DNA of 33,046 nt from Saprospiraceae bacterium. Lineage in GTDB: Bacteria; Bacteroidota; Bacteroidia; Chitinophagales; Saprospiraceae. Numbering within the stretch: the stretch's first letter is position 1; each line of letters opens with the position of its first letter. Below, piece after piece: positions 912-33,046 of this stretch. Below the pieces are notes generated by a model that saw nothing but the letters and a program-made list of their open reading frames with translations, was not told where the DNA came from and searched no databases. The DNA lies in assembly GCA_024762995.1 (NCBI GenBank), contig JANTGI010000022.1, forward strand, positions 1 through 33,046. Reading direction: 5' to 3'. A program made the translations under genes and the position numbers.

Positions 912-1574
912 ATGAAAAAGCTACTTTTATTTTCCATATTAGTCATCCTTTTGTCTTCGGCTGCCTGTCGCAAAGAATGCCCCGCTGATGTCAAAATAGG
1001 AGAAAAACCCCTGTCGGAAAAAAGTCTTCGTTTTTTCCCGTACACAGGAAGTCCAAAGCTTTATTTTAAAGATCAATCCGGTCAAGAATTGGAGTTTAGG
1101 AGTCCGGAAGGAGTTCGCATGGAAGCGGACAAAATTTCGGTGTATAAAAAATGTACCGAAGTCAAATTTGATGGAAAATCATCTTATGAATATTTTGAAG
1201 GACAATCTAAATCTATCGCATTCTTTTCTGCGCCTACTGAGTTCTCGATAAATCTTGGGTTATTCACATCTATACTGCGCCCGGAGCAAGAACTATTTTA
1301 TGACAAGCTCGTCGTCAATGTCATGGGCACCGGCTCCATTGGTCGGGGGGAATTAGTCACCGACGTGCGCTTCACGGACAATTATCAGGAGTCGGAATTT
1401 AACATCACGGATTCCTTGACCTATATCGATTCGCTGACTCTAAATAATCACCTTTTTACGGAAGTCTATCAAACCAAGGACTTTGAAGGTCGCCAAGTCT
1501 ATTTCAACAAAGATCAAGGGGTCGTTGGATTTAAAACAACAGACAAGGTTTACGCTCTGGATAGAATTGAGTAA
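912..1574 (+). CDS. Hypothetical lipoprotein
   Basis: This is a 220-residue protein of unrecognised family. The N-terminus is a lipoprotein signal peptide: basic MKK, hydrophobic LLLFSILVILLSS, then the lipobox SAAC with Cys19 as the lipidated residue, so the mature protein should sit on an envelope membrane facing the periplasm or surface. The rest is polar and beta-rich in look, with no enzyme motif that I recognise. Two further cysteines occur early (CPADV at about 23 and the KKCTEV region), possibly a disulfide. It stands alone, with a putative TATATTTG promoter box just upstream and no close downstream partner. The ATG at 912 is chosen because it begins the signal peptide exactly. Confidence 0.8.
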   Translation: MKKLLLFSILVILLSSAACRKECPADVKIGEKPLSEKSLRFFPYTGSPKLYFKDQSGQELEFRSPEGVRMEADKISVYKKCTEVKFDGKSSYEYFEGQSKSIAFFSAPTEFSINLGLFTSILRPEQELFYDKLVVNVMGTGSIGRGELVTDVRFTDNYQESEFNITDSLTYIDSLTLNNHLFTEVYQTKDFEGRQVYFNKDQGVVGFKTTDKVYALDRIE

Positions 1575-1779
1575 TCGTTGACTTCACCCCTTCGACAATG
1601 GCATCCCTGCCCCAAAATATTTTCATAAATATCGCCCCCGGGTGTCAACGAAACGACGAATTCAGGCGTTATCTAAAGATAAGGATTCTTTTTCCTGCAT
1701 TTTTGGTTAGATATTGCTCAAATTTGTAGATATTTGTGTTCCTTTCGGAAATTTTCCATTTTTAATCAAAAAAACAACC

Positions 1780-3309
1780 ATGAAGCGTTTTTTTACAGTA
1801 TTTAGTATTCTTTTCATCACCACTCAGGTCTTTTCTCAAGCATTGACACGAGGTGTTTGTGGCAACATGCCTTCTGAAGCCGCAGAGAAAAAATTATTGG
1901 CCAGTAAAGCCTTATTTGAAAAACTGGACATCATACAAATCGAAGACCTAAAGTATGTTCCCATAAAATTTCACCTGATTGCGAAGACTGATGGGACAGG
2001 TCGTGTCAAAGAATATGATATTTTGAGACAATTATGCGTGCTTAATGAAGACTATTCCGATACAGAGTTCCGCTTCTACATTAAAGATGCTGACTTTAGC
2101 TACTACGATAGCGATTATATCTATGACTCTCCTCGAACTAGCCAGCTGGCAACCAATCAAATGCAGGCACTAAAAAATGCCAATAATAACGCCGTCAATG
2201 TATTTGTGGTTAATAACATTGGAGGTGGTGCAGGTGGTCTAGGTACGGTTCTTGGGTACTATTCCGGGGCTAAGGATTGGATCGTTATGATAAAAAAAGA
2301 ACCACAAGCCGGTAGCAACACACTATCCCACGAAATGGGACACTTCTTTAGCCTTTTACACACATTTAATGGTTGGGAAGGTGCTCCGTTTCAATCTTCT
2401 TCTGCAGGATGGCCAAAAGCGCCCTTTAATTCGCCGGGGGGACCTCAAACGGAAAACCAAGATGGGAGTAATTGTTCCGTTGCCGGAGACAAACTATGCG
2501 ACACTCCTCCGGACTATAATTTTGGGATTATATGGAATAACTGCAATTATACCGGCGGTGCGCAAGATTATAAAGGAGACTTAGTTGATCCTATGGAGAA
2601 TAACCAAATGTGTTATTTTAGCGGTTGCTATCCATATGTTTTTACTTCCGATCAAATCAATATGATGTATGGCGACTACGCTAAAACATCCAGAAATTAC
2701 ATCAAATCGTCTTACGTGCCTAATAACACACAAGTAACGACCCATGCCAATCTGGTTTCCCCTACAAATGGAGCCAATACAGGAGGCAACATCGGCGTCG
2801 TCCTTGATTGGGAAGATATACCTGATGCAGATCATTATTTGCTTGAAGTATCCAGATATCCTAACTTCTCTAAGCTCAACCAAAACTATATTGTAAGTGA
2901 GTCTCAAAAGGAATTACCGGAATTGACCCCCAATGTCAACTATTTTTGGAGAGTAACCCCATTTAATGACGGGGCTAGTTGTGTAGCCGGTTTAACTTCT
3001 TCAAAATGGAAATTTGCGACCAAACCGCTGGCCATTTCCAATATCGAAGAAATCAATGCTTGGGATGTAGTGCCTAATCCAACGACTCTCTCCCAGGTAA
3101 GATTTGCGATAGAAATTGCCAAACCACTAGACATTACCGCTCAAGTCGTAAATGTCAATGGACAGATTTTACAATCTAAAGAACTTACTGTCCATGCCGG
3201 CAATCAAGTTGTACAATTACCTGAAATTTCTTTACCAAACGGAACTTATTACCTCCGTCTTATTTCTGACAAAGGTATGGAAACACGTCGTGTTGTTATT
3301 CAAAAATAA
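1780..3309 (+). CDS. Secreted M43 (pappalysin/cytophagalysin-like) metalloprotease with T9SS type A sorting domain
   Basis: This 509-residue secreted zinc protease is predicted to be exported by Sec and then by T9SS. The signal peptide is residues 1-19 (MKRFFTVFSILFITTQVFS). The metzincin zinc site HEMGHFFSLLH has ligands H184, H188 and H194 and catalytic E185; a later DPMENNQM stretch may supply the Met-turn. The sequence around it (GLGTVLGYY, WIVMIKKE, multiple Cys) fits the M43 cytophagalysin family. A fibronectin-III-like module follows (about 325-420, with NYFWRVTPFNDG), then a type A sorting domain of about 80 residues from VVPNPTT to the end, with PNGTYYLRL and terminal RRVVIQK. The frame stays open upstream to 1714, but ATG 1780 begins the signal peptide and follows a typical A-rich leader (aaaaaacaacc). 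It is monocistronic and converges on trmN6. Confidence 0.9.
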   Translation: MKRFFTVFSILFITTQVFSQALTRGVCGNMPSEAAEKKLLASKALFEKLDIIQIEDLKYVPIKFHLIAKTDGTGRVKEYDILRQLCVLNEDYSDTEFRFYIKDADFSYYDSDYIYDSPRTSQLATNQMQALKNANNNAVNVFVVNNIGGGAGGLGTVLGYYSGAKDWIVMIKKEPQAGSNTLSHEMGHFFSLLHTFNGWEGAPFQSSSAGWPKAPFNSPGGPQTENQDGSNCSVAGDKLCDTPPDYNFGIIWNNCNYTGGAQDYKGDLVDPMENNQMCYFSGCYPYVFTSDQINMMYGDYAKTSRNYIKSSYVPNNTQVTTHANLVSPTNGANTGGNIGVVLDWEDIPDADHYLLEVSRYPNFSKLNQNYIVSESQKELPELTPNVNYFWRVTPFNDGASCVAGLTSSKWKFATKPLAISNIEEINAWDVVPNPTTLSQVRFAIEIAKPLDITAQVVNVNGQILQSKELTVHAGNQVVQLPEISLPNGTYYLRLISDKGMETRRVVIQK

Positions 3310-3318
3310 AGACCTTGT

Positions 3319-3358
3319 AGTAGATACAAGGCATGTTCAGACTTGCCTTGTATCTACT
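3319..3358. repeat. Palindromic intergenic repeat, copy 1 (bidirectional terminator-like hairpin)
   Basis: GTAGATACAAGGCA (3320-3333) and TGCCTTGTATCTAC (3344-3357) are perfect inverted arms around a 10-base loop, and A3319/T3358 extend the stem to 15 bp. It fills the 48-base gap between the convergent metalloprotease and trmN6 and overlaps the trmN6 stop by one base. Near-identical palindromes lie at 8782-8812 and 29993-30022, so this is a dispersed family. A role as bidirectional terminator is inferred from position; there is no long U-tract. Confidence 0.85.
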
Positions 3359-8818: not shown

Positions 8819-9892
8819 TTAATCCTGAAATAAAAACCCATTCGGGAATCTACCAACCATCATGGAATCTACTAAAGTCGGCATATTATTAACATCCAGG
8901 TCATACACATAGACCATCCCATTGACCCCATTATCCTTGCCTACATACAGTTGTTTCTCGCTCTTATCGACACCGATACCATAAAATCCGCCTTCGATGA
9001 TGGCGCTGGAGTCAAAACTCCCGGTGGCCTTGTTAAAACGATAAATACCGTCCGTACCTGAACCATACAAGTGCATCACAAACAGCATAGAGCCATCAGG
9101 AGATTCTGTAAAATCTTGAATAAACCCTTTCGAAAACTCATAAACATGAGTCGTTTGATCGTTTTCGATTTTAGCCAATTTACTGTTACCTACAAAACAT
9201 CCGGTAGAAGACACCCAAATTTTGCCGTCATCAGATTTCGAGATGCGCGTAGGACAACCGCCCACAGGCAGGGATTTTAAAAGGGCATTATCCGAAGTAT
9301 TGTAAATATTGACCACGGAGTCCGACCCCCATCCGCCGGAAATAGGCACGTAGAGTTTGTCGTCAGAGACCAAGAGCTCTTCCGGCCCGTTGTTGGTCAT
9401 AATGGAATCGACGATGGTGTTGTTATCGGTATTCAAGATTTTTATTTGACCATTAGCAGCGGCAGTTCCCCACTGCGATACATAAGCTTCAGATTGGTTT
9501 CTTTGGGCCAAATATCTAGGTTGAACTAAGCCCCCGGTAACTGTTGCTTCCGACTGCATGGTGCCATGGTTGACAACTTCAATTTTTTCGGAATTATTAG
9601 CGACCAAAAAACCTTTGTCATTGATAAATGCCATAGAATTGAATACATTACCGACTACAGCCCCGTTATTTTGGGTCTGAAATACTTCCGGGATTAACTG
9701 CTTTGCCCCCTTATCATAAAAATAAAGGCTGCCTGCATCAGCGTTAAAAACCCCTTCACAAACGACAAAAATGCCCTTCTTTTTAAACTGTGGGGTCTCT
9801 TTGACAGGAGTCACCGGATCCGGTTTACAAGAAGAAAACAAACTGATGCCTCCTAAGGTCAAGGCAAGAAGAAAAAATGATTTAAAATTCAT
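8819..9892 (-). CDS. BtuG-like surface cobalamin-binding beta-propeller lipoprotein (DUF5074/YncE-like)
   Basis: This 357-residue lipoprotein has signal peptide MNFKSFFLLALTLGGISLFSSC (lipid Cys about 22). The mature protein is a beta-propeller of the DUF5074/YncE-like type: GIFVVCEGVFNADAGSLYFY, FNSMAFINDKGFLVANNSEK and the C-terminal VGRFPNGFLF are characteristic, with repeated strand blades between. In Bacteroides, BtuG is a propeller lipoprotein that captures vitamin B12 at the cell surface for the TonB receptor BtuB. The complete cobalamin riboswitch directly upstream on the same strand strongly supports a B12 role here. No btuB is adjacent, so it appears monocistronic. The frame stays open to 9964, but ATG 9892 begins the signal peptide. 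Binding of B12 itself is inferred from family plus riboswitch. Confidence 0.82.
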   Translation of the reverse strand: MNFKSFFLLALTLGGISLFSSCKPDPVTPVKETPQFKKKGIFVVCEGVFNADAGSLYFYDKGAKQLIPEVFQTQNNGAVVGNVFNSMAFINDKGFLVANNSEKIEVVNHGTMQSEATVTGGLVQPRYLAQRNQSEAYVSQWGTAAANGQIKILNTDNNTIVDSIMTNNGPEELLVSDDKLYVPISGGWGSDSVVNIYNTSDNALLKSLPVGGCPTRISKSDDGKIWVSSTGCFVGNSKLAKIENDQTTHVYEFSKGFIQDFTESPDGSMLFVMHLYGSGTDGIYRFNKATGSFDSSAIIEGGFYGIGVDKSEKQLYVGKDNGVNGMVYVYDLDVNNMPTLVDSMMVGRFPNGFLFQD

Positions 9893-9943
9893 AACTTTTG
9901 GACTTTTATCCCTTTCGGGAAAGATTAAAAAAAGTCCAAAGTT
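9893..9943 (-). promoter_or_regulatory. Hairpin immediately before the BtuG-like start codon
   Basis: AACTTTTGGACTTTT (9893-9907) and AAAAGTCCAAAGTT (9930-9943) are inverted arms with a one-base bulge, enclosing a smaller CTTTC/GAAAG hairpin. The structure ends at the base next to the ATG (9892), so it could occlude the translation start when the riboswitch is cobalamin-bound. The regulatory role is inference. Confidence 0.45.
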
Positions 9944-10036
9944 CTCTGTGCAGATAGGCACCATAAAGCAAGGCTATAGCTTGCGCAAAAGATGGTCTAT
10001 CCATTGTTTTTTCACCGAAAACTTTGGAAATTAAGC

Positions 10037-11521: not shown

Positions 11522-11596
11522 CGGGATGTAGCTCAGTTCGGTTAGAGTACTGGTCTGGGGGACCAGGGGTCGCAAGTTCAAATCTTGTCATCCCGA
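11522..11596 (+). tRNA. tRNA-Pro (anticodon GGG)
   Basis: The acceptor stem CGGGATG (11522-11528) pairs perfectly with CATCCCG (11589-11595), followed by discriminator A11596. The D-arm is GCTCAG...AGAG. The anticodon stem CTGGT/ACCAG encloses the loop CTGGGGG, giving anticodon GGG with G37. The T-arm GTTCAAATC is present. The C1:G72 pair and G37 are normal for proline tRNAs. CCA is not encoded. Folded by hand. Confidence 0.95.
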
Positions 11597-11601
11597 CTAT
11601 C

Positions 11602-11686: not shown

Positions 11687-12712
11687 TTATTTAGTCCCGT
11701 CCGTCTTTTTCGTCCAATCCGCCGAGACCGCCAAAAAAGCGATGATATCCTCCACATCTTGCTCCGTTAATGCTCTACCTAGTTGCACATTACCCATAAT
11801 TCTCACGGCATCTTCCAGCTTTTTGACAGAACCATCATGAAAATAAGGAGCCGTTTTGGTGATATTCCGCAAGGAGGGCACCTTAAATACATCTCTATCC
11901 GATTCCTCCTGAGTAATGGCCAACTTGCCTACATCGTGCTTATTGCTCTTCGTAAATCGTTGATAATTGTCAAACAACCCAAATTTTTGGTACAAAGCGC
12001 CCCCCATCGCCGCTCCACTATGACAAGGAATACATCCAAAATCTAACATTTTTTTTAACCCTTGTTTCTCTTTTTCCGAAAGGACATCCAAATGACCTTC
12101 TAAGTATTCGTCTAATCGGCTCGGTGTCATCAATGTCCGCTCAAAAGCCCCTATGGCTTGAGCAATTTGCGGATATTTGATTGTTTTTTCATGGGGATAA
12201 GCTTGCGCAAAAAGAGCCAAATACTTGGGCATTTGCTGTAATCGATGGACTACTTCTGCTTTGGAAGACATCGCCATTTCTTTGGGATTCAACAAAGGCC
12301 CTTCCACTTGGGCTTCTACATCTTTGGCGCGGCCATCCCAAAACTGGGCCAAATGCAGTGCCGCATTATAGGTGGTCGGGCTGTTTCGATCACCTAGATG
12401 CCCCCCCACACCCTTGGACAAAGGTGTATCATTAACCCCATAGGATTCTAGCGGGTGACAAGTATTACAACTGACGGACTTATCTTTGGATATTACTTTT
12501 TCGTAGTAGAGTTCTTTACCTAAATTCACCAACGCCGCCCTATACGGATGCGCTTCATCCATAGCATTTTCCGGAAGGGGAAACAAATAGGTCGTTGCCA
12601 TTTCGTGCAATACTTTATCGGCATTGGAGACCTGCGTTTTTGGTTCCAGTACTGTTTTTTCTTGTTGGCAGGAGAGGCCGACCAAAAGGACGACGATGAT
12701 TGAATACTTCAT
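11687..12712 (-). CDS. Di-heme cytochrome c peroxidase family lipoprotein
   Basis: This 341-residue protein has a lipoprotein signal (MKYSIIVVLLVGLSC, Cys15), so it is anchored in the envelope with its hemes on the periplasmic or outer side. Two c-type heme sites are seen: CNTCH (C82, C85, H86) and CIPCH (C227, C230, H231). Family blocks: GVGGHLGDRNSPTTYNA, FWDGRAKDVEAQVEGPL, APYFHDGSVKKLEDAV and AVRIMGNVQLG. The Met of the last block (M306) matches the axial ligand of the high-potential heme in bacterial peroxidases; MauG enzymes have Tyr there, so peroxidase chemistry is favoured over MauG-type protein oxidation. It starts 9 bases after the propeller gene and is the last gene of the operon with the amine-oxidase-like protein. 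Confidence 0.9.
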   Translation of the reverse strand: MKYSIIVVLLVGLSCQQEKTVLEPKTQVSNADKVLHEMATTYLFPLPENAMDEAHPYRAALVNLGKELYYEKVISKDKSVSCNTCHPLESYGVNDTPLSKGVGGHLGDRNSPTTYNAALHLAQFWDGRAKDVEAQVEGPLLNPKEMAMSSKAEVVHRLQQMPKYLALFAQAYPHEKTIKYPQIAQAIGAFERTLMTPSRLDEYLEGHLDVLSEKEKQGLKKMLDFGCIPCHSGAAMGGALYQKFGLFDNYQRFTKSNKHDVGKLAITQEESDRDVFKVPSLRNITKTAPYFHDGSVKKLEDAVRIMGNVQLGRALTEQDVEDIIAFLAVSADWTKKTDGTK

Positions 12713-12721
12713 ATTTTGGTT

Positions 12722-13747
12722 TTATTTCCCTTGTGGATGAGCTTCGCGGAATGACCAAGCATCCTTTGCCGCATCATAATCAAAAAGATAAATATTTCGC
12801 TGCGGATCACTGGCCGCCATTAAAGAAAAACTAAACTCTATTCCTTTGATTTTCATTACATTATCTCTCAAAAAACGGATTCTATGGGCGTTATCATAGC
12901 TACCACCTTCTTGGGCAGCCAATGAAAATTCATACTTGGGCTTTCCCACAAAGCCACCGGAATCATCCAAATCAATCGAAAAAATCTCCGGCGAACGGGC
13001 ATGTCCCAAATATAATTTTTTCCCGGATTTCGTCGTAAATACACCGAGCCCCAAAGCATCAAATCCTTCCAATTGATGGAGTATTTTTTTGGTCGCCAAG
13101 TCAATATGAAAAACTCTACCTACTTCGTCATCCGTTCCGGAGCCCGCCAATGACGACACATAAATGCTATGATTGGCACAATCATAAGTCATCCCTACCA
13201 CCCCATACGGATTTTGGTCTGTCGGTTCTTTAGCCGCGGGCAAGCTCATAAATGGAGTCATCTCCCCGCTCTCCGCATCTATTTTCATGATTTTATTATA
13301 ATAGGAAGGCGGTCGATCCAGCAAGCTCACAAAAGGGATTGGCGCTGTATAAATCACGCCGTGCTTATCCAACGTATATGGCCCCAATGTCCCGACTTGA
13401 CTCCACTCTTTCTTTTGCAAAACTTTACCTCCTTTACGTGCTTCTATGATTTTGAGTCCCGGGCCGTCAATCTGACGCAAATCTATAAAAAACGGGGGAC
13501 GCAAACCGGCTTTCTCCGGAAAAATGGGATTTTTTGCGCAAGCATCTGCCCGTCCGACGGCTCTTTGTAGCCTCTTCTGGGCTTCGGCTCTTTCTTGGTT
13601 TTGTTTTCGCTTCGCCTTGGCATCCGTTTCCATCCACCCCCAATACATCGCACCCAGCACTAGCGGTATCAGAAGGAGCAGCCAAACCGGTAAGTTCTTT
13701 TTAGGCTTAACTCTTTTCGTGGAGTCATGTTGTTTTTTACTGGACAT
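12722..13747 (-). CDS. Membrane-tethered beta-propeller-like periplasmic protein
   Basis: This 341-residue protein is of unrecognised family. The N-terminus is basic (SSKKQHDSTKRVKPKK), then a single TM helix at about 20-38 (VWLLLLIPLVLGAMYWGW), then a charged linker, so most of the protein should be periplasmic. The region from about 85 has repeated blade-like segments (GVIYTAPIPFVSLLDR, GVVGMTYDCANHSIYVSSL, GRVFHIDLATKKILHQLEG, KKLYLGHARSPEIFSIDL, RNIYLFDYDAAKDAWSF) that look like an NHL/quinoprotein-type beta-propeller. It lies 3 bases after the amine-oxidase-like gene and 9 bases before the di-heme peroxidase gene. A partner or scaffold for those two redox-type proteins is the natural inference. 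Confidence 0.78.
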   Translation of the reverse strand: MSSKKQHDSTKRVKPKKNLPVWLLLLIPLVLGAMYWGWMETDAKAKRKQNQERAEAQKRLQRAVGRADACAKNPIFPEKAGLRPPFFIDLRQIDGPGLKIIEARKGGKVLQKKEWSQVGTLGPYTLDKHGVIYTAPIPFVSLLDRPPSYYNKIMKIDAESGEMTPFMSLPAAKEPTDQNPYGVVGMTYDCANHSIYVSSLAGSGTDDEVGRVFHIDLATKKILHQLEGFDALGLGVFTTKSGKKLYLGHARSPEIFSIDLDDSGGFVGKPKYEFSLAAQEGGSYDNAHRIRFLRDNVMKIKGIEFSFSLMAASDPQRNIYLFDYDAAKDAWSFREAHPQGK

Positions 13748-13750
13748 GGA

Positions 13751-15535
13751 CTATTTATTTTTGGTAGAAAAAGGTACAAACATCGGCCCCACCACCCCTT
13801 GATAGGTTTGGAAGCCTTCATGACCATCGATGACGCGGGTTTCGACCCAACAATATTGTTCTCCTTTTTTATCACTGTTTTTCATTTGGGGGACATACCA
13901 GATGATGTTTTGGCCCGTCAGGGACTCAGCGGGTTGAATAAAACGCTCCGGCCCTTGTTCAAAATCAGTATGACAACACGGCCCAAGCGTACTCATATCT
14001 TCCTCCCCTTCTCCGGTATGCTTCACAGCCACATAAGTAAAAGCATGATCGCCCCGACTGTGGTCTCCGAATTGCCCGTTATTCGGCTGCAAATAGTAGC
14101 CCGAGCCGTCTTTATTGGTCATCCGAAACAAGTAGCCTTCCGGCGAAAAAGAAGCATTTTTCTCTTGCAAATTCCAATTTTCCTTCTCCCAACGTACCCA
14201 TTTCCCCTTTTCCCATGCCTCCACTACTTGTCCTTGCTCATCCGCCAAATCAATCCTAAACACCGGTCTATACCAGCCATTGTTACTGCACCCCAAGCCC
14301 AGATTCACTCCTGCCACCCGAAAACGCCCATCCTCATAAAATTCAAATAAATTCTGATAGCGATAATTACAAGATTTTGGCCACACCGGGCTCCGAAAAT
14401 CTTGTACAAAAGAAAATCCAATCTCTTGCCCTTTATTTCTAATGGGTTCTATTTCCGGCGGCTCAAAGGCGACCACGGCCGCAGAGCTAAATTGGGGGCA
14501 ACCCATCGCATCCGAATAGCCAAAATCCTTTTTATCCGGATAACTGACATGCCAATCCACTAATTTAGCCGATGTCAAGACCGGTTTTCCATTATAATAT
14601 GCGTCAAAAATCTCTATACCATCGGAATTAGTTAATTGATAGTGGATGCGCCAACGATTGCGCTCAATCGTCGTGGTATCCTGGCAATAATTTTTGGTAA
14701 TGACTTCATTTTGCAGGCTTCTTTCTGTGACCAATTGCGGACGTCGCTCATCCCATCGGGGCATCCATTGATATCCGATGGCTTTTAGCTCCGTCAAATC
14801 CACTAATATCCATAAACTCTCCTCGCTTCCTTTCCGGGTGACGATGACGGCCGAACAAAGATGTCTGGAGCGCTCACATTTGGAGCTGCGGACGACCACT
14901 TCATAGGAAGCAGGTATGGCGCCCGTCGTCAATCCTAGTTGGGTCTGCACCTGTGGATAGGCCATGGCTATTTTTTGAGACAAGACTTGCATTTCATTGG
15001 TCAAATGGGGAGATTTACCCGGAGAGCTAACGACTTTCACGACTTTTCGACTTGTTTTATCGATGAATGCCTGCCGAACGGTATTGTAATAAAAATTATA
15101 GCTTTCGACCAAAACCAAGTCGCCGGCAACCTGAATTTTGCGAATTTCATTGGCTTTGGCCGGTCGGATATCCGTCACCATATTGAGTAAAGGTGCTTTG
15201 GTCTCCGGCAATAAATGTTGGACATTAAACTCTTTATCTTGAAGTGCTATCGCTTGCGCAAAAAATAAATCTTGAGGAGATATTTCTTTTTCCGGCAACG
15301 GCATAATCGGGTTAGATTGTTTCAAAACACCCGCAATCTTATCTTTAAACAACTGAACATCAGGAACTTGACTCAAAATTTGGGCATGATTGACATAAGT
15401 CAACAAGTCCGCCTTTCGATGGGCGGCTTTGGGGGAAGATGCCTTTTGGTGGTGCTCAGATGAAGAATCATTTTCTGATTGACACCCCAGAAGCAACCAA
15501 AAAATCAATATAAAAAAGGGAAAGCTAAATTTCAT
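13751..15535 (-). CDS. Divergent copper-amine-oxidase-like lipoprotein
   Basis: This 594-residue lipoprotein has signal MKFSFPFFILIFWLLLGC (Cys18). The N-terminal part (about 80-260) resembles the small N2/N3 domains of copper amine oxidases (VESYNFYYNTVRQAFIDKTS; LWILVDLTELKAIGYQW). The C-terminal part has SDGIEIFDAYYNGKPVL (304-320) and CNYRYQNLFEFYEDGRFRV (389-407), which aligns by eye with the NYDY cofactor-tyrosine strand of true oxidases (the topaquinone precursor would be Y391). Where the HxH copper ligands should follow, the sequence is WYRPVFRIDL (421-430), so they appear to be lost. It may be an inactive relative or use other chemistry. The frame stays open to 15607, but ATG 15535 begins the signal peptide. 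First gene of the operon with the propeller and the di-heme peroxidase. Confidence 0.68.
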   Translation of the reverse strand: MKFSFPFFILIFWLLLGCQSENDSSSEHHQKASSPKAAHRKADLLTYVNHAQILSQVPDVQLFKDKIAGVLKQSNPIMPLPEKEISPQDLFFAQAIALQDKEFNVQHLLPETKAPLLNMVTDIRPAKANEIRKIQVAGDLVLVESYNFYYNTVRQAFIDKTSRKVVKVVSSPGKSPHLTNEMQVLSQKIAMAYPQVQTQLGLTTGAIPASYEVVVRSSKCERSRHLCSAVIVTRKGSEESLWILVDLTELKAIGYQWMPRWDERRPQLVTERSLQNEVITKNYCQDTTTIERNRWRIHYQLTNSDGIEIFDAYYNGKPVLTSAKLVDWHVSYPDKKDFGYSDAMGCPQFSSAAVVAFEPPEIEPIRNKGQEIGFSFVQDFRSPVWPKSCNYRYQNLFEFYEDGRFRVAGVNLGLGCSNNGWYRPVFRIDLADEQGQVVEAWEKGKWVRWEKENWNLQEKNASFSPEGYLFRMTNKDGSGYYLQPNNGQFGDHSRGDHAFTYVAVKHTGEGEEDMSTLGPCCHTDFEQGPERFIQPAESLTGQNIIWYVPQMKNSDKKGEQYCWVETRVIDGHEGFQTYQGVVGPMFVPFSTKNK

Positions 15536-15976
15536 AGTCTTTAATCTAGGCGACAAATATATGAAATAAATACAATATAAATAGGGCGCAGTCGGGTTTT
15601 GGGCCATATAGTTTAAATGATAGAATACCGTGACGGATTTTTACGGATTTGTCCTTCAAAAATTCGAAAAAAGACTCTAATCGAAGTGGAAATCCGTGTG
15701 AAATCTGATATAATTTACGTCAGTAAATTATCCGTGAGAAATCCGTTTGATCCGTTTCATCCGTGTTCTTTTTTTTAATAAAGAGATAGGGACATTGGAG
15801 AAAACATGGGCAAATCCAACCAAAAGATGGACTTAGAAAGGAGCCACCTAAACAGTCACAAAAATTGTTAATAGCGTGCAAACGACATATCCTTTGCAAC
15901 CAAATGCCCTAAAATGATGTTAGTTAGGTCAATCCTTGGAAAAGGAGACTTGTATTCACAGTAAAAACATAGACAG
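15536..15976. other. Gene-free intergenic region with ATCCGT repeat element
   Basis: This spacer separates the divergent amine-oxidase-like operon (-) and thioredoxin (+). It contains the repeat element at 15633-15764 and otherwise AT-rich sequence; no open frame is convincing. A TATCCTTTG sequence near 15885 is one base too long to match the TAnnTTTG promoter box cleanly. Confidence 0.5.
15633..15764. repeat. ATCCGT/ACGGAT intergenic repeat element with central hairpin
   Basis: Two ACGGAT hexamers (15633, 15643) on the left face five ATCCGT hexamers (15692, 15730, 15741, 15750, 15759) on the right, giving a large imperfect inverted repeat. In the middle, TAATTTAC (15711-15718) and GTAAATTA (15723-15730) form a perfect 8-bp hairpin with loop GTCA. 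It looks like a structured dispersed intergenic element. Confidence 0.6.
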
Positions 15977-16291
15977 ATGGCATTCGAATTCACAGATGCA
16001 AACTTTGAGACAGAAGCTAAAGGAGTAACTTTAGTTGATTTTTGGGCGGAATGGTGTGGCCCTTGTCACATTATCGCACCACATATTGAAGCTTTAAGCC
16101 AAGAATATGCGGGCAAAGCGGTAGTAGGCAAGTTAGATGTTGACCATAATCCAACCATAGCGCGAAAATATAGCATTCGAAGTATTCCGACAGTAATCGT
16201 CCTAAAAGACGGAGAGATTTTTGATAAACACGTGGGTGTTGCTTCAAAAGCTCAGCTTGCGCAAAAACTAGAAGCGGCTTTATCGGCTTAG
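15977..16291 (+). CDS. trxA: Thioredoxin
   Basis: This 104-residue cytoplasmic thioredoxin has active site WCGPC (C27, C30) preceded by VDFWAE. The cis-proline is in SIRSIPTVIVLKDGE, and the C-terminal helix is AQLAQKLEAALSA. Length and lack of signal peptide match housekeeping TrxA, which keeps cytoplasmic dithiols reduced via thioredoxin reductase and feeds reductases such as Msr. ATG 15977 is the only start giving the standard N-terminus (FTDANFETEA). It is monocistronic, with a GC-rich hairpin terminator about 100 bases downstream. The naming is by family; other trx paralogues may exist in the genome. Confidence 0.95.
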   Translation: MAFEFTDANFETEAKGVTLVDFWAEWCGPCHIIAPHIEALSQEYAGKAVVGKLDVDHNPTIARKYSIRSIPTVIVLKDGEIFDKHVGVASKAQLAQKLEAALSA

Positions 16292-20912: not shown

Positions 20913-21431
20913 TTACTTTTTTTTCTTTTCCGGCACAAAGTCAAGGGAAACCGAATTAATGCAATAACGCATACCGGTGGGCTTGGGGCCATCATCAAAT
21001 ACATGCCCCAAATGTCCGCCACACCTAGCACAACGAATTTCTATCCGACGCATTCCGTGGCTTGTATCCACAATTTCTTTGACGTGTGTCTTATCGATAC
21101 TCTCATAAAAACTAGGCCATCCACAGGTGGTCTCAAATTTTGAGTGAGAACTAAATAAGGGAAATCCACATGCCGCACAGACATATTGTCCATCTTTTTT
21201 ATTGGCCAACCATTTTCCTGTAAAGGGGCGCTCCGTACCTTGCTCCCGCAACACCCAAAACTGCTCAGGTGTCAAAGATTCCTTCCATTCTTCTTCCGTC
21301 TTCTGCACCGGCACGATGGTGTCACTTTGCATGGAAATCACGGGCTCATTTTTTGGCATCTTAGCGCTTTGGCTAGTTGCAGTGCAGGAAATGATGACCA
21401 TCAAACTTATTCCAAAGAGTATTTTGCTCAT
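20913..21431 (-). CDS. msrB: Exported peptide-methionine (R)-S-oxide reductase (MsrB), lipoprotein form
   Basis: This 172-residue protein repairs R-methionine sulfoxide in proteins. Its N-terminus is a lipoprotein signal ([16 protein letters not shown], Cys16), so it acts in the periplasm or envelope rather than the cytoplasm. The catalytic Cys is C157 in [11 protein letters not shown]; the conserved CGWPSF block is at 103-108 and [11 protein letters not shown] at 139-149. The zinc cysteines are present as CAAC (85, 88) and CARC (134, 137). The domain is full length. It sits between the DUF4249 lipoprotein gene (52-base gap) and the TonB receptor gene (71-base gap). The electron donor for an envelope MsrB is not evident here. 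Confidence 0.93.
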
Positions 21432-25577: not shown

Positions 25578-28500
25578 CTACTCAATGGCGATTTTGGCGA
25601 AAGCTACCTTTTCGTTGGTCCAGAATTTCACCCAATAGATTCCGCTTGAGAGATTTGACACATCCAAGGAATACTGTTCTCCTACTTGCAAGTCTAGCGA
25701 GCGATTGCCCATGATTTGTCTTCCTGTCATATCCATCAAAGAATAATTAAAAGAGTAAGCTTGAGCACTTCGATTTTTGATAAAAAGAAAATCTGATGCA
25801 GGATTTGGCGCAAGCCCGATACCGGGAAAAATGGCCCCAATTTCTTGAACATCTGTCACAATATCTAAAGAATGACACGTTGTGCTCTCGCCACAAGCAT
25901 TGGTCACTGTCAAACACACCTGATAACTTCCGGAACCCGGAAAAACATATACCGGATTAGGCGCTGTAGAAACATCACCCGTACCAAAGTCCCAAAGTAA
26001 GGAAGTTGCGTTTGTTGAAGTGGATGTAAAAGAAACTGTATTTGATGCACCGGAATAGGAAAATCCGGATAATGGATTTGTAACAATAACCACCCCATAG
26101 TTAAAAGTCTTTACACCGGAAGGACTTGTCACCGTTAATTGTATATTTTTAACGCCGGGGGTCAAATAGACGATTTGATGGGGTCCGGCCGTAGTATCGA
26201 TGCTCCCCCCATTGTCGAAATCCCATTGATAAGTCAAAGAATCTCCTAGATAATCCGTAGCAATCTCGATGGTATCACCGATACAGCCATCGGTCTGTGC
26301 CACAATAATTCCTTGCTCTTCGGTCGTTATTAAAATGTTGTCCAAATACAAACTATTTCCATATCCATTAATATTATTAAATTTTACTTTGACATTAGAG
26401 TCACTAAAGCCTTGTACCACAAACTCCTCATGCTTCCAATCCGAAGCGCTTGTTGGATGCCATTTACTTGTACTTACTGAAGGTATCGTCCGCAAATCGT
26501 CTCCCCCTTTGTAAAATAACTGTAACTCTCCCGCACTATAATCGCAAGGATCATAAACCACGACTTCCAATGTATCCGACCAAATATCATTATAGTTACT
26601 ATAGCTATAGTCAAAAGACAACTTAAAACTCCCGGTGCTATCTGTATGTACCGCTTCTGACTCCACAGAAGTAATTTGACCGGGTACATCATACAAATAA
26701 TTGTCCACCCAGACCGCAGAAGTAGTCATGCCATCTGCCCCCACCGTACTTTCATCTTTTGCCCAAATGTAGGTCCCGTCATCTCCAATAATATTCCAAT
26801 TAGCAGGAGGAAACTCAGTTCCATCAAATCCTTGCTCCAAATTAGTCACCGAACTGCTTGCTATATTCTCCACAAAAAATGAATAAGCAATACTATTGTT
26901 GACTAGAATCTCATCATCGCTCTGAATTACTTCTAAGGAGATAGAGTACTGCCCGGTATTGATCAATTCTAAGGAATCCATGGCTTCCCAGATGACAATT
27001 TCTCCGGCATTTATAGTGCCCACATAAGGTACGGATATGGGAGTTCCATTGTTTTTAGAATAAACCACATTAAAATTGGTCATGGGCATTTTACCTTTAT
27101 TCCGAATTGTCGCTATGATGGGTATCTTTTGAGACATACATTGCGCAATATCTTCACCGGAAATATTGACTAGGTTATCCACCGCCAAATCAAAATCCAC
27201 CTGACATTCTTTGAGGCCGCCTGCATAATATTTTGCGTAAGCTCTCTCACTCTGCAGTCCATCAGCGCCTCTAGCCCTTACGGAATACCAAAAGTCAGCA
27301 TCCGGATTCGAAATCGGATAATAAATCCCCGTTGCCGAAGTAGTGCCTACAGAATCCATATATTTCGTCCCTAAAACAAATAAATCATAATCCGTCGCAT
27401 TAGCTACCGGACTCCAAGAAATATAAGCAAAGTTGGCACAAACAGTATCCACTTGCAAATTAGCCGGGCGGGCCATGATCGAAAAATTATAAATAGACTG
27501 GGCGGAAGCACCATTTCTGGAAACTCTTACTAGTCCCTTCCCCGTCGGAGTATCGGGAATAGTCCATAAGTAAGAACGTGAATTGGTCATGCCTAAACTA
27601 TTCCAAGACACTCCATTATCCAAAGAGTACTCTACCGTAAAATCCTCATTGGACACCTCATATGCATCCCAAAAAATACGTACCTTTTCTCCTGGTTCAA
27701 AACGTTCTCCACCTACCGGAAAAGCCATAAATAACGGATCACTGACTGCACTATGCAAAACAAAATACTCTTGCGGCCCCATAGGGACGGCATTTCCACG
27801 AACTAACACCTGATAATCACCACCCATCGGAGCCTGAAAAACCACCTGCTCCATATTATTCAAATGGTCTTCGCCATGAGTAGCGGGAGCATTGAGCGAA
27901 GCAGAATTAGGGGTAGGATCCAAAACCCAAGGCAAAATCGTATCTCCGGTCGGACTGACCACTTTTAAATCTAAGTCATTTATCAATGCTTGATCCGCAT
28001 AGGCAGGTGCCGGTGGATCCATCCAGTATAGCATAAAACGAACTTGAACTGATCCATTCGGTACTTGAATGATATGAACCTGGTTTTGACCTTGGTCAAT
28101 GGAACTCGTCAAAAAATCACCATTCTCTAATAGCTTTACAGCCCGATAACCATTGAGCTCTCCCCATCCATGCTTAAAATCCGGCCCAACATTACCTAAA
28201 TCAATAGCCGTATTTAATAGGCAAGCCTTGATTAGACCGGATTTTGGAATGGCCCCGCCGTAAAGGGATTTATAGGCTTGAATCAACTGGGTAAAGACAC
28301 CCGCAGTACCCGGAGAAGCCGCCGAAGTGCCTCCACCGGGACTATAATCGTTATTCGGATCGGTGGACATCTGCAGGTGACCATGCGCACAGATATCCGG
28401 TTTTATCCGACCATCATAGGCCGGTCCCCGACTACTTGAACTTCTTAACTGAATATCCTTTTCAAGATTACCCGTAGCGATGGCATTCTTCCCTTGCTTA

Positions 28501-29612
28501 TGTCCACCGGTAATATTTCCCCATCCTTCAATTCCATAACCACAATCGCCGCTTCCATTATTTCCGGCCGAAAAGATATGAACTAAGGTAGGATTTTCAT
28601 AAATCTGCTGATCAATGGTATGTGTCACGGCCGTATAGCCCGCATTACACCCGTTAGAATAAGAAGAAGACGTAACCAATACGTTTTCATTCAAGTGCAA
28701 ATCAAGTGTATAAGTTTGAAATTCGGAGTTGTAGTCCCTTACAAATAATTCTGCTCCGGGAGCCATTCCTTTATAGGTCGGCTCCAGATTACCGGCACCC
28801 GTTAAGATTCCGGCCACCATGTCCCCATGACTACCCCCTCCATTGGTCGTCGGATCATCCTGATTCACGCGACCCGTAAAATCAATATGGGGCCCGACCG
28901 ACCCATCGTCTCTAACCAAGACTTTTACCCCCGTACCATCATAATGTCTCCCCCCGGGATAGTGCGAATCAAGCACATTAGAACGGTGCATAGCGCGTCC
29001 GTTATCATCATCCAAAACATCCGGTGGATTAATCCAATCAATAAAGGATACTCCCGGCAATGCTGCCAACAATTCAATATTTTTGGTTGAAGTAGTGACT
29101 TCTACATAGCATTCATGCCTTCCGGAAAAATCAACCTGGACCCCAAAATCTTGGATCCATTTTACAAAAACAGACGGCAAGGTATTTTTGTAACCTTCAA
29201 CAATAATCTTCACTTGGTCATTTTTACCTTTTGCCCAAGAAGGAATGGGTCTTTCTTTTACTTTTGGCGAAAGCTTAGCCGCCGTAGGTATCGTTACAAG
29301 CCCATCCATGCCTATTGAACGACACAGCTCTTCCGAAACGGGTTGCTTAAAGGCCACCAAATAAGTAGCATTTAAATAATATTCTAAAAATTGCACCCCT
29401 TTGGCTTCTAATCGAGCCCGTTGCTTGGATGTTGGAATTTGAGAAAAGTGTGCTAAACGATAAAAAGAAGGGATTGACCCATCTTCGGCAATTCTCGCTT
29501 GCGCAAAATTTTGAGCATCAAACGCAATGACTTCTCCCCTCATCAGAGTGCTTTGACTACGTAAGGCAAAAGGAACAAGAAACAAGAAAAAAAACAATTT
29601 TAATGGAGACAT
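25578..29612 (-). CDS. Large secreted subtilisin-like serine protease (S8) with Ig/PKD modules and T9SS type A sorting domain
   Basis: This protein of about 1344 residues is exported by Sec (MSPLKLFFFLFLVPFALRSQ) and then T9SS. The S8 catalytic domain has Asp in VLVRDDGS (about 235), His in GGGSHGDMVAG (about 262), the oxyanion Asn in SAGNNGS (about 351) and Ser in GGGTSAASPG (about 430). A beta-sandwich with LINDLDLKVVSPTGD follows, as in related subtilases. Then come fibronectin-III-like (NLQVDTVCANFAYISWSPV) and CARDB-like modules, a MAM/lectin-like module and two PKD-type modules. The final 80 residues are a type A sorting domain (GLAPNPASDFLFIKN; LSSGIYWVKF). An ATG at 29642 is an alternative start, adding ten residues. 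Monocistronic. Confidence 0.9.
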   Translation of the reverse strand: MSPLKLFFFLFLVPFALRSQSTLMRGEVIAFDAQNFAQARIAEDGSIPSFYRLAHFSQIPTSKQRARLEAKGVQFLEYYLNATYLVAFKQPVSEELCRSIGMDGLVTIPTAAKLSPKVKERPIPSWAKGKNDQVKIIVEGYKNTLPSVFVKWIQDFGVQVDFSGRHECYVEVTTSTKNIELLAALPGVSFIDWINPPDVLDDDNGRAMHRSNVLDSHYPGGRHYDGTGVKVLVRDDGSVGPHIDFTGRVNQDDPTTNGGGSHGDMVAGILTGAGNLEPTYKGMAPGAELFVRDYNSEFQTYTLDLHLNENVLVTSSSYSNGCNAGYTAVTHTIDQQIYENPTLVHIFSAGNNGSGDCGYGIEGWGNITGGHKQGKNAIATGNLEKDIQLRSSSSRGPAYDGRIKPDICAHGHLQMSTDPNNDYSPGGGTSAASPGTAGVFTQLIQAYKSLYGGAIPKSGLIKACLLNTAIDLGNVGPDFKHGWGELNGYRAVKLLENGDFLTSSIDQGQNQVHIIQVPNGSVQVRFMLYWMDPPAPAYADQALINDLDLKVVSPTGDTILPWVLDPTPNSASLNAPATHGEDHLNNMEQVVFQAPMGGDYQVLVRGNAVPMGPQEYFVLHSAVSDPLFMAFPVGGERFEPGEKVRIFWDAYEVSNEDFTVEYSLDNGVSWNSLGMTNSRSYLWTIPDTPTGKGLVRVSRNGASAQSIYNFSIMARPANLQVDTVCANFAYISWSPVANATDYDLFVLGTKYMDSVGTTSATGIYYPISNPDADFWYSVRARGADGLQSERAYAKYYAGGLKECQVDFDLAVDNLVNISGEDIAQCMSQKIPIIATIRNKGKMPMTNFNVVYSKNNGTPISVPYVGTINAGEIVIWEAMDSLELINTGQYSISLEVIQSDDEILVNNSIAYSFFVENIASSSVTNLEQGFDGTEFPPANWNIIGDDGTYIWAKDESTVGADGMTTSAVWVDNYLYDVPGQITSVESEAVHTDSTGSFKLSFDYSYSNYNDIWSDTLEVVVYDPCDYSAGELQLFYKGGDDLRTIPSVSTSKWHPTSASDWKHEEFVVQGFSDSNVKVKFNNINGYGNSLYLDNILITTEEQGIIVAQTDGCIGDTIEIATDYLGDSLTYQWDFDNGGSIDTTAGPHQIVYLTPGVKNIQLTVTSPSGVKTFNYGVVIVTNPLSGFSYSGASNTVSFTSTSTNATSLLWDFGTGDVSTAPNPVYVFPGSGSYQVCLTVTNACGESTTCHSLDIVTDVQEIGAIFPGIGLAPNPASDFLFIKNRSAQAYSFNYSLMDMTGRQIMGNRSLDLQVGEQYSLDVSNLSSGIYWVKFWTNEKVAFAKIAIE

Positions 29613-29652
29613 TTTTAAGGTTTTAAGGTGGTTTTTAAGCATTTATACATGG

Positions 29653-30122: not shown

Positions 30123-33046
30123 TTATCTCACCAAGGTCACATCTCCGGTAAAAAACTTGACTTCTCCATTATCCAAAAGCACATAAAACTGATACACATA
30201 GACTGCTTCAGGGAGTTCCTTGTCCCTAAAGAAGCCATCCCAGCCATTACTACCATCTACAATAGGCGCATAATAAACCTTTGTCCCCCAACGATCATAA
30301 ATCTCCAAGTCATAGACTTCTTTGACTCCTTGACCGGAATAAACAGTAAAGAAATCATTACCTCCATCCCGATTAGGAGAGAAGATATTAGGAACAAAGA
30401 TATTAGGCGTATCATCTACAAATATATTCACATCATCCGTGGCTTTACATCCGGAATCATCAATTACGGTAGCACGCAAGGTAACAGATTTTGCCGGGTA
30501 GAAATCTTGCGTAAAACAATTCAGATTCCCTACACAACTAGAATCAAACACCTCGTTCCACATAAAAGACTGTACCGCATTAGGGTCATTTACCTCCGCA
30601 CTGACAGAGACACCATCACCCAATTTAACTATTTGATCAGGCCCCAAGTCCACCACCAACAAATCAGGCTCACCAACCGTCAAAGTCCGCTCCATGGTAC
30701 AACCATTCACATCTTGTATGGTCACCTGATAATCTCCCGGCGGTATGGGCGAGAAGATTTTATTTTGTCCGAAAGGACCATCATCAAGACGGTATAAATA
30801 AGGAGACTCCCCCCCTTGGACACCTCGAATGATAATCGCACCGTCTTTAAACCCGTTACATTGCACTGGTACCGCATCATAATCTAAATCAACCGGAATA
30901 TTACCATTGGTCGGCAGGTCAACTTCCGTACTTGCTGTACATCCATTTTGATGATCTGTTACTGTAAGAAGATATTGACCGGCACCCTGCACATAAGGCT
31001 GATAACTATCATATCCACTCAAGATATTTCCATTACTAATTACATCCCAAGCGTAAGAGATGTGAGACCCGGAAGACGAGCCCTCCGCTGCCAAAGTTCC
31101 CTTATCCACCGTACAAGTCACTTCAAAATTAGCCACACCCGCTGCCAGCGGCGGAATCGTGTCTGCATCCACATTAAAGTCTTTCTGACCTACACAACCA
31201 TTATCCCCAACAATATAGACTTGATAGGTACCGGCTTCATCAATTAAGATCGTCGTATCATCTTGGATACTTAGCCCCGGGCCACTCCAAGAAATGCTAT
31301 CCAATGGGCGATTAGAAGATAAGGTAGCCGGTACGCTATTGCCATAACAATTCACCACACCATCAACCATCAAAGTAATCAATGGCGCATCCGTATCATC
31401 AGGCACCACAATATTTCCATTCGACGTACATCCGTTATTTTGGTCCGTGGCAATGACTCCATAATTGCCGGCTCCGGTCACTTCTATAGAGTCACCGACA
31501 CCAATTAAGGTACCGTTTTCATACCAAGCAAAATTAACCGCCGTAGAAATTGAATTCCCATACAAAATAGCCGTCTGGCTCACGCAATCAATGGTATCGT
31601 TGGTAAACGGACTCATCGGCGGTTGAATGGTATCTATTCCAACAATAAGCAATTGTTCCGATACACAACCATTTGACCCAAAAGCTCTTAATAAATAATT
31701 GCCGGGCTCTTGGACAATAGGCGTCGGATCATTCGTCTTAAAATTATTAGGTCCGTTCCATTCAAAAACGACATTGGCTGTCGTAGTCGTTGCGTTTAAT
31801 TGTGTAGATGGATTAACACAATTTAAAGGCAGGCTACTGGAAGCCACTAAATTAAGCGGCCCCTGGTTATTCAAGACGATACTATCCACCAAGTCCGAAG
31901 AACATCCGTTATGATTATCCACTAAATGAAGCTGATAGACTCCACCTTGATTCATGTCAATCAAAGAAGAATCATTGGACATGGTTACCCCGTCCGGGAA
32001 AAGCCATGAATAAGACAAATCCAAATTATTCACATTATTCACCAAAATATCTCCCAAAGTATCCGCACAAGTTATCTCACCTGTCAAAGTAACTACCGTA
32101 GGCTTCATTGTATCAATTAAAACCGCAACATCCATGGTCGCCGGACAATTGGTCATCGTATCCAAAACGGTAAATGTATATTGCCCCGGTATATTCACAT
32201 CCATATCACTTCCATTCCTAATCGTACCATCCGGCTCTGTCCATGTAAATACGACATTTGAAGATGTAGATGACCCTAAAAGAATCACTAAACTATCCTG
32301 ACAAGTAATTGGCCCACTTACCGTTGCACTAATATCCGGTACATTCACCGAGCTATTTACAGTGACCATGGTACTATCCTGGCATCCAATCCCATTTTCG
32401 GCAACGAAAGTATAAGTACCCGGGGCACCCGCGATCAAAGTAAAAGAAGGCGATAATATAGTTCCATTTTCATCTTTCCAGAAACCCGTTACGGCTCCTC
32501 CATCAGATGATGTGGCACTCCCTACCAAAGTATCCGGTATACCGGAGCAATCGATAAACCCATTATTGGCCATTGTCACACCTTGTATATTCACTTGCGT
32601 AAAAGTAAAAATCACTTGGCTTGTTGCCGGGACGCAAGGCCCGGAGCCATCCGGATCATTCGTAATCAATGTTAGAGTCACAGAGCCGGCATCCAATTCC
32701 GCCTGTGAAGGCGTATAAACGGCATTCAAATCTTGATCATTCGGTGTGTAAGTTCCCGTTCCACCGCTCCAAGTCGCTGTAGTTGCTCCACCTCCTAATA
32801 CACCTGACAAGCTAATTTGTGGATCAGAAAGACATATATTTAAATCCTGTCCGGCATCTGCACTTGCCGGATTCAAGCAACCACAATCATTCACCGTTAT
32901 ACTTGCCGTGTCACTATTCGTACAGCCATTTGCATCTGTATAGGTATAGACGATGCTAAACGTACCTGCTCCGGAAATGCCCGGATCAAAGGTATTGCCC
33001 ACGATGCCTGTTCCACTATAACTTCCACCGGCCGGCGTTCCCGCCA
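30123..33046 (-). CDS. Giant repeat adhesin with Ig/PKD-like repeats, SprB repeat and T9SS type B (gliding-associated) sorting domain, C-terminal part
   Basis: The frame is open through the right edge with no stop, so the true start lies outside the window; at least 973 residues are seen. From the edge: a GGSYSGTGIVGNTFDPGISG-type Ig module, then about eight repeats of 80-95 residues. Each repeat has a Cys near the front (ITCQDS, ITCADT, LNCVNP, IDCVSQ, VNCYGN, VTCTVD), a central W, PGxY, and a terminal GC or NC, implying one disulfide per module. Near the C-terminus is a SprB repeat (VQCNGFKDGAIIIRGVQGGE...YLYRLDDG). Last comes a type B sorting domain (FVPNIFSPNRDGGNDFF; LEIYDRWGTKVY; GWDGFFRDKE; VYVYQF). 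The protein is probably a cell-surface adhesin or gliding-related filament. Proteins with this ending are often anchored or released by T9SS. Confidence 0.92.
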   Translation of the reverse strand, partial: AGTPAGGSYSGTGIVGNTFDPGISGAGTFSIVYTYTDANGCTNSDTASITVNDCGCLNPASADAGQDLNICLSDPQISLSGVLGGGATTATWSGGTGTYTPNDQDLNAVYTPSQAELDAGSVTLTLITNDPDGSGPCVPATSQVIFTFTQVNIQGVTMANNGFIDCSGIPDTLVGSATSSDGGAVTGFWKDENGTILSPSFTLIAGAPGTYTFVAENGIGCQDSTMVTVNSSVNVPDISATVSGPITCQDSLVILLGSSTSSNVVFTWTEPDGTIRNGSDMDVNIPGQYTFTVLDTMTNCPATMDVAVLIDTMKPTVVTLTGEITCADTLGDILVNNVNNLDLSYSWLFPDGVTMSNDSSLIDMNQGGVYQLHLVDNHNGCSSDLVDSIVLNNQGPLNLVASSSLPLNCVNPSTQLNATTTTANVVFEWNGPNNFKTNDPTPIVQEPGNYLLRAFGSNGCVSEQLLIVGIDTIQPPMSPFTNDTIDCVSQTAILYGNSISTAVNFAWYENGTLIGVGDSIEVTGAGNYGVIATDQNNGCTSNGNIVVPDDTDAPLITLMVDGVVNCYGNSVPATLSSNRPLDSISWSGPGLSIQDDTTILIDEAGTYQVYIVGDNGCVGQKDFNVDADTIPPLAAGVANFEVTCTVDKGTLAAEGSSSGSHISYAWDVISNGNILSGYDSYQPYVQGAGQYLLTVTDHQNGCTASTEVDLPTNGNIPVDLDYDAVPVQCNGFKDGAIIIRGVQGGESPYLYRLDDGPFGQNKIFSPIPPGDYQVTIQDVNGCTMERTLTVGEPDLLVVDLGPDQIVKLGDGVSVSAEVNDPNAVQSFMWNEVFDSSCVGNLNCFTQDFYPAKSVTLRATVIDDSGCKATDDVNIFVDDTPNIFVPNIFSPNRDGGNDFFTVYSGQGVKEVYDLEIYDRWGTKVYYAPIVDGSNGWDGFFRDKELPEAVYVYQFYVLLDNGEVKFFTGDVTLVR

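Follow-up and report, generated by a model that had tools for sequence, protein, structure and literature searches.

A predicted copper-free relative of copper amine oxidases encoded with a beta-propeller and a di-heme peroxidase in Bacteroidota and other bacteria

What might a relative of the copper amine oxidases (CAOs), a beta-propeller and a di-heme cytochrome c peroxidase do together? The question is raised by three consecutive genes of a Saprospiraceae bacterium (Bacteroidota), found in a stretch of 33,046 nucleotides (assembly GCA_024762995.1, contig JANTGI010000022.1, positions 1 to 33,046; hereafter the window). The open reading frames and DNA of the window place the three genes on the same strand, 3 and 9 bases apart, as an earlier sequence-only reading had stated. 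That reading compared the set with the amine dehydrogenase (Mau) system, in which a di-heme enzyme matures a protein-derived quinone, and knew of no described system of this composition; a search of the openly licensed literature found no description of a CAO-like/propeller/di-heme set either. The evidence assembled here leads us to favour, tentatively, a dedicated exported protein-oxidation cassette built on a copper-less CAO scaffold, with SdrD_B surface proteins as its likely clients.

The 594-residue product, described in the earlier reading as amine-oxidase-like, has the CAO fold in its AlphaFold2 model (predicted local distance difference test score, pLDDT, 86.7; predicted template modelling score, pTM, 0.82), and the proposed resemblance holds; lack of this fold had been named in advance as a ground for refutation, and the protein withstands that check. 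The 50 rows listed by Foldseek for this model are amine oxidases, one of them titled just 'oxidoreductase' (best E 3e-17). VIA-align places residues 285-594 of the model onto residues 233-620 of AGAO (2yx9_A) with Z 22.0 and a root-mean-square deviation (rmsd) of 3.0 over 258 residues. Alignments that include the N-terminal part give an rmsd near 23, and the relative placement of the domains is therefore unsupported.

Sequence profiles detect the relationship as well. The family alignment A1 comprises 38 of 48 CAO-like places (a duplicate, L001, the split L044, the fragment L047, and L005, L027, L028, L031, L032, L041 and L042 were left out), and its members share 36-65% identity with the window protein. 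In the metagenome-assembled genome (MAG) that contains L044, the CAO-like gene (1571-3357) is broken into two frames, by error or decay. Against E. coli K-12 TynA alone, the A1 profile gave an hhalign probability of 4.8, which was too weak, so a set of 11 real CAOs (A5) was assembled from TynA and 10 plasmid-record CAOs (from 30 listed of 91 records). The full-length comparison with this set reached a probability of 96.9 (E 1.6e-10); with the catalytic domains alone it was weaker (50-65). Pfam PF01179 (Cu_amine_oxid) scores the window protein at 20.4 bits, under its cut-off of 27, and matches 37/38 aligned family members at E <= 0.01 (best 4.8e-7). NCBIfam yielded no match to the protein at E 1 or better, the family profile had no match at E 1, and a phmmer search of the PDB returned one chance match, Potempin C (E 0.59). 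Elsewhere in the class, none of 149 genomes has a true CAO over the cut-off, the sole sub-threshold match being the window's own protein.

In TynA numbering (30 added to that of the mature protein), the topaquinone is taken to be residue 496, and the remaining residues named here 399, 413, 554, 556 and 719; the 11 CAOs are invariant at these six positions. Like TynA and AGAO, the cassette protein retains the topaquinone-site Asn-Tyr and the second active-site Tyr. In 38/38 members and all four MAFFT modes, Y391 (codon 14365-14363) aligns with the topaquinone Tyr, N390 with the Asn of that site, and Y332 (codon 14542-14540) with the conserved active-site Tyr; the hhalign comparison yields these three pairings too. 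Within the topaquinone consensus, as given in the excerpt of PMC3382800, Asn-Tyr is kept in 38/38 sequences, and Thr and Asp/Glu are unconserved.

Unlike CAOs, the family has neither the copper His triad nor an aligned catalytic base. The triad aligns to a gap, a gap and Asn553 in 38/38 sequences, both gaps corresponding to the HxH motif. Beyond residue 340, the best His column of A1 reaches 23/38, and the only columns with His in at least 80% of the sequences are H225 (37/38) and H329 (38/38). The position of the catalytic base Asp is a gap in the four MAFFT modes; an invariant D342 lies near it and is an unproven candidate for the base. A further difference from CAOs is the presence of six invariant Cys (38/38), including the vicinal pair C520-C521. 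The excerpt of PMC3382800 describes the copper ligands of CAOs as three conserved His, with other metals able to substitute in vitro, and topaquinone as self-made in a process that requires metal and oxygen. With the copper His gone, this self-processing route is therefore closed in its known form, though the tyrosines are kept. Judged from these alignments, the protein is a member of the CAO-fold family and yet not a CAO, with tyrosines kept and copper ligands lost.

The same losses would suit another explanation, in which the CAO-fold protein is a catalytically dead scaffold or ligand binder, the propeller is structural, and the di-heme protein is a plain H2O2 peroxidase with no tie to the pair beyond co-transcription. 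This explanation, which is possible although doubtful, draws on the absence of copper ligands and of an aligned catalytic base throughout the family, on the ordinary nature of the window's di-heme protein as a Met-type CcpR homologue, on the places that lack an adjacent di-heme gene (10/46), and on the generic nature of the propeller matches. It does not readily account for Tyr391, Asn390, Tyr332 and six Cys remaining invariant in 38/38 sequences despite 36-65% identity to the window's protein, and two di-heme types at the same gene pair are poorly explained by a chance neighbour.

Whether the three families are neighbours in other genomes was the check named beforehand, and it came out in favour of the grouping. 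The search for related loci found 42, which come from Bacteroidota, from Pseudomonadota (Thiothrix, Arenicella) and from a single Chloroflexota MAG. The linkage counts cover 46 places, made up of related loci, loci from the genome search and the window, with L001 and L047 left out; two genomes (G150 and G550, carrying L005 and L041) share coordinates and are probably one, which would reduce the 46 places to 45 distinct ones and the 33 cassette genomes chosen from them to 32. The propeller lies <=3 kb from the CAO-like gene in 44/46 places across three phyla, the two exceptions (L032 and L042) being cut off by a contig end. Chance linkage is therefore excluded for this pair. A di-heme gene lies <=3 kb away in 35/46 places, on the opposite strand in 2 of the 35. 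Among genomes sampled from the window's phylum, 5/395 encode the CAO-like protein, three of the five belonging to one genus, and 6/390 the propeller, namely the same five and a sixth with a weak match (E 7e-7) inside a 1189-codon frame. A mobile element was considered and set aside, the CAO-like protein being without a match in plasmid and phage records. Upstream of the cassette in two Arenicella places (L045 3865-4988, L019 3758-4978) lie genes for what we take to be small proteins resembling PqqD and an HPr-kinase-related protein.

The identification of the third product as a di-heme enzyme is borne out by its best PDB matches, the cytochrome c peroxidases 6qkn (E 1e-86) and CcpR 6fu3 (E 1.1e-86); the best MauG chain follows at E 7.2e-23. 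The protein has the features of a bacterial cytochrome c peroxidase: two CXXCH motifs (residues 82 and 227) and, by alignment, Met306 (codon 11797-11795) at the axial position. Trp125 is presumably the inter-heme Trp. Scores against the MbnH model TIGR04039 (157.7) and the MauG model TIGR03791 (TTQ_mauG; 122.8) fall under the cut-offs of 362.85 and 443.85. What sets the protein apart from known bacterial cytochrome c peroxidases is the grouping of its gene with CAO-like and propeller genes. The window genome has six CCP_MauG places, so the cassette gene is not its sole one.

A second type of di-heme enzyme takes this place in one clade of the relatives. Met-His ligation characterizes bacterial cytochrome c peroxidases, and Tyr-His ligation MauG, according to the excerpt of PMC6405878. 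Among 26 aligned di-heme neighbours (alignment A4, from 36 matches; L001, L004, L005, L025, L027, L029, L031, L034, L042 and L044 were left out), the axial position holds Met in 6 (the window and L006-L010), Tyr in 15, Phe in 4 and a gap in 1. A tree branch with support 100/100 splits the six Met-type proteins from the 20 others, with the long branches of L033 and L043 unsure; the status of the non-Met neighbours as one group was checked on these 20, which are 21-31% identical to the window's protein. Six MbnH-like neighbours were scanned with the MbnH model: L018 (368.0) and L003 (371.9) pass the cut-off, and four others (354.6, 316.7, 265.2 and 138.5) fail. The best PDB match of the L018 protein is 6e1c, a 'di-heme enzyme' (E 1.9e-79).

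The split recurs in the CAO-like protein tree, where the Met-type partners all fall on one side of a branch (100/97). The states Met type, MbnH-like (here any row whose di-heme neighbour is outside the Met type) and none adjacent need 2 changes on this tree, the minimum, with several branches being long. That two di-heme types adjoin one gene pair suggests a need for a di-heme enzyme beside the CAO-like/propeller pair, although divergence of one ancestral neighbour may also account for the pattern.

These results bear on the comparison with the Mau system. A MauG-type enzyme oxidises residues of preMADH to yield tryptophan tryptophylquinone (TTQ), as stated in the excerpt of PMC6405878. Methylamine dehydrogenase with MauG and the cassette are alike in that a di-heme enzyme, a propeller and a putative quinone protein occur in one gene set, and in that 15/26 cassette di-heme neighbours have Tyr where MauG has Tyr294. 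They are unlike in that gene-for-gene homology was not detected, the MauG model score is far under its cut-off, and Met takes that position in the window enzyme. The case for Mau-like maturation, which the earlier reading called to mind, is thus weakest precisely here, where the di-heme protein is of the classical CcpR type with Met306; since the window enzyme is of the Met type, the analogy suits the relatives, with their 20 MbnH/MauG-like neighbours, better than the window.

The propeller stood as called. Its model (pLDDT 90.7, pTM 0.83) and fold matches confirm a propeller; these matches are generic, the first being the lactonase RPA3624 (Z 17.4, rmsd 3.2, 223 residues). Nothing shows the protein to be 'quinoprotein-style': a quinoprotein signature was not found, NCBIfam gave no match to a dehydrogenase subunit, and among the NCBIfam propeller models YncE alone matched, weakly (21.4 against a cut-off of 400). 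A second exported propeller-type protein of the window, with DUF5074, is encoded past the tRNA and one further gene, and has a counterpart near the cassette in L006.

A catabolic system resembling amine dehydrogenase would place a quinone on the CAO-like protein and pass electrons via the propeller to a cytochrome. The composition does resemble that of Mau, with an amine-oxidising protein, a propeller and a di-heme enzyme, and the QHNDH chain 1jju_B is found at rank 30 among the Foldseek matches of the propeller. Such a system is nonetheless improbable given the absence of NCBIfam matches at E 1 or better for the CAO-like protein and of dehydrogenase-subunit matches for the propeller, and given the TTQ_mauG score of 122.8 against 443.85; nor does the co-occurrence with surface proteins, described next, seem to point to catabolism.

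In Chitinophagaceae and Thiothrix, large SdrD_B proteins adjoin the cassette. Frames with SdrD_B or the module described below reach 10542 (G013:C9), 10586 (G034:C41) and 6509 codons (G521:C1). SdrD_B is present in 33/33 cassette genomes; as a link in itself it was dropped, because 97/198 phylum genomes have it, and the specific part is a module of 488 positions, A7, that sits between the SdrD_B domains of these proteins. Pfam has no family for A7 (a chance match, E 0.0078, turned up in 1/8 rows), and the PDB offered no relative that convinces (best E 0.028). The module lies <=4.4 kb from the CAO-like gene in 19/46 places, with 13 copies on the other strand from that gene and 6 on its own (five of the Thiothrix group and L038), and occurs in 27/33 cassette genomes. 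Of 385 phylum genomes, 13 have A7: 5/5 with the cassette and 8/380 others (p 1.9e-8). Counted by genus, A7 is found in 3/3 with the cassette against 7/164 others (p 1.6e-4), both values being uncorrected for kinship.

The module has a WxxW motif in 8/8 aligned rows, present as WNPW in the window genome's copy. The excerpts of PMC3621798 and PMC3912023 describe the conversion of a Trp to kynurenine in MopE and CorA, with a MauG-like partner as the suspected agent. On this precedent, the di-heme enzyme could oxidise Trp of the SdrD_B proteins to kynurenine, as is suspected of the CorB-CorA and SACCP-MopE pairs, while the CAO-like protein and the propeller dock or present the client. The WxxW conservation, the L018 and L003 neighbours over the MbnH cut-off (368.0 and 371.9 against 362.85) and the match of L018 to 6e1c speak for this route. 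It is quite unlikely all the same: invariance across eight rows is weak evidence, five Thiothrix-group places have A7 nearby and lack a di-heme gene <=3 kb, and the window enzyme is of the CcpR type.

The pairs MbnH/MbnP, SACCP/MopE and CorB/CorA (TIGR04039 and TIGR04052) are among the nearest described systems, and MbnH reportedly makes kynurenine in MbnP. The likeness is that, in one clade of cassette-bearing relatives, an MbnH-like enzyme is encoded next to an exported partner; the difference is that the partner here is a CAO-fold protein with a propeller, and that the window enzyme is CcpR-like. By analogy, the cassette may work as such pairs do when their MauG-type enzyme oxidises residues in the exported protein paired with it. 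MbnP itself was rejected as a missing partner, as it is over the cut-off in just 2/33 cassette genomes, beside its own MbnH. Matches to MbnP at E <= 0.001 occur in 23/33 cassette genomes and are mostly weak; that of the window genome (E 7.1e-6) is on contig C24, with the cassette on C22. In two Thiothrix-group genomes an MbnH-MbnP pair, both over the cut-off, lies off the cassette contig (L066/L077, G524:C54; L067/L076, G523:C8).

In the tentatively favoured protein-oxidation cassette, the CAO-fold protein would be a copper-free amine oxidase relative in which Y391, with N390, and Y332 may form a redox-active site. The propeller would be its constant partner, possibly in a physical complex, and the di-heme peroxidase would supply or drain oxidising equivalents via H2O2. 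In the MbnH/MauG-like clade, the di-heme enzyme could generate a protein-derived cofactor, either in the CAO-like protein or in its client. In the window's clade, the CcpR-like enzyme more probably draws electrons from the CAO-like/propeller pair; as a Met-type enzyme, it is likelier to accept electrons or remove H2O2 than to synthesise a cofactor. The likely clients would be the large SdrD_B surface proteins bearing A7. A bolder version is unlikely: that the di-heme peroxidase installs a tyrosine cofactor on the copper-free scaffold, which then oxidises or cross-links SdrD_B proteins in Bacteroidota, Thiothrix and others, as a bacterial system that modifies the envelope in a lysyl-oxidase-like manner.

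Several findings weigh against a protein-oxidation cassette. Ten of the 46 places have no di-heme gene <=3 kb (7 of the Thiothrix group, 2 Arenicella, 1 Anaerolineales); one of them, L016, has just 1.9 kb of downstream sequence, and all 10 genomes carry superfamily matches elsewhere. The window's own di-heme protein belongs to the Met type, the non-Met neighbours include the 4 with Phe and the 1 with a gap at the axial position, and just 2/6 scanned MbnH-like neighbours pass the MbnH cut-off. On the client side, 6/33 cassette genomes are without A7, the copy in the window genome is on a different contig from the cassette, and SdrD_B is common anyway (over the cut-off in the 97/198 phylum genomes). 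Finally, 4/8 A7 genomes without the cassette belong to the window's own family, so kinship accounts for part of the link.

A CAO-fold family that has its tyrosines but not its copper ligands, present in three phyla beside two di-heme types, makes MauG-type chemistry on an amine oxidase fold directly testable, and it would offer a first clue to the so far undescribed module of the large surface proteins.

Table 1. Features of the window discussed in the text.
Feature	Position	Strand	Length	Remark
Di-heme cytochrome c peroxidase, CcpR type	11687..12712	minus	341 aa	
Membrane-tethered beta-propeller	12722..13747	minus	341 aa	
CAO-fold, lipoprotein-like protein	13751..15535	minus	594 aa	ATG at 15535
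tRNA-Pro	11522-11597			downstream of cassette
Thioredoxin gene	15977-16291			divergent, upstream of cassette
DUF5074 protein	8819-9964	minus		
SelR (MsrB) protein	20913-21431	minus		
Subtilase with PKD domains and Por_Secre_tail	25578-29642	minus		
CHU_C-tailed protein	30123-33044	minus		

The three products had been read as exported and membrane-anchored (Table 1), and the anchoring is sustained only in part. The CAO-like protein has a lipobox (LLGC, Cys18); a longer frame of 618 aa begins at 15607, and the start at 15535 is preferred because LLGC then puts the lipobox Cys at Cys18. The propeller has a single hydrophobic segment at its N-terminus and no lipobox. The N-terminus of the di-heme protein, VGLSC, is not scored by the lipobox pattern, which does score the di-heme N-termini of L006 and L007. 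CXXCH motifs are confined to the di-heme protein, with zero in the other two. When the first 75 residues of the longest frames are scanned at the 46 places, the pattern occurs in 20 frames of the CAO-like protein, 13 of the propeller and 6 of the di-heme protein, and lipid anchoring is therefore not general. Promoter and terminator scans gave counts close to the average after shuffling (9 against 8.1 and 6 against 4.8).

Further along the window, the SelR (MsrB) protein has a signal-like N-terminus, read by eye, and is possibly an exported methionine sulfoxide reductase. The subtilase with PKD domains and the CHU_C-tailed protein are probable type IX secretion clients.

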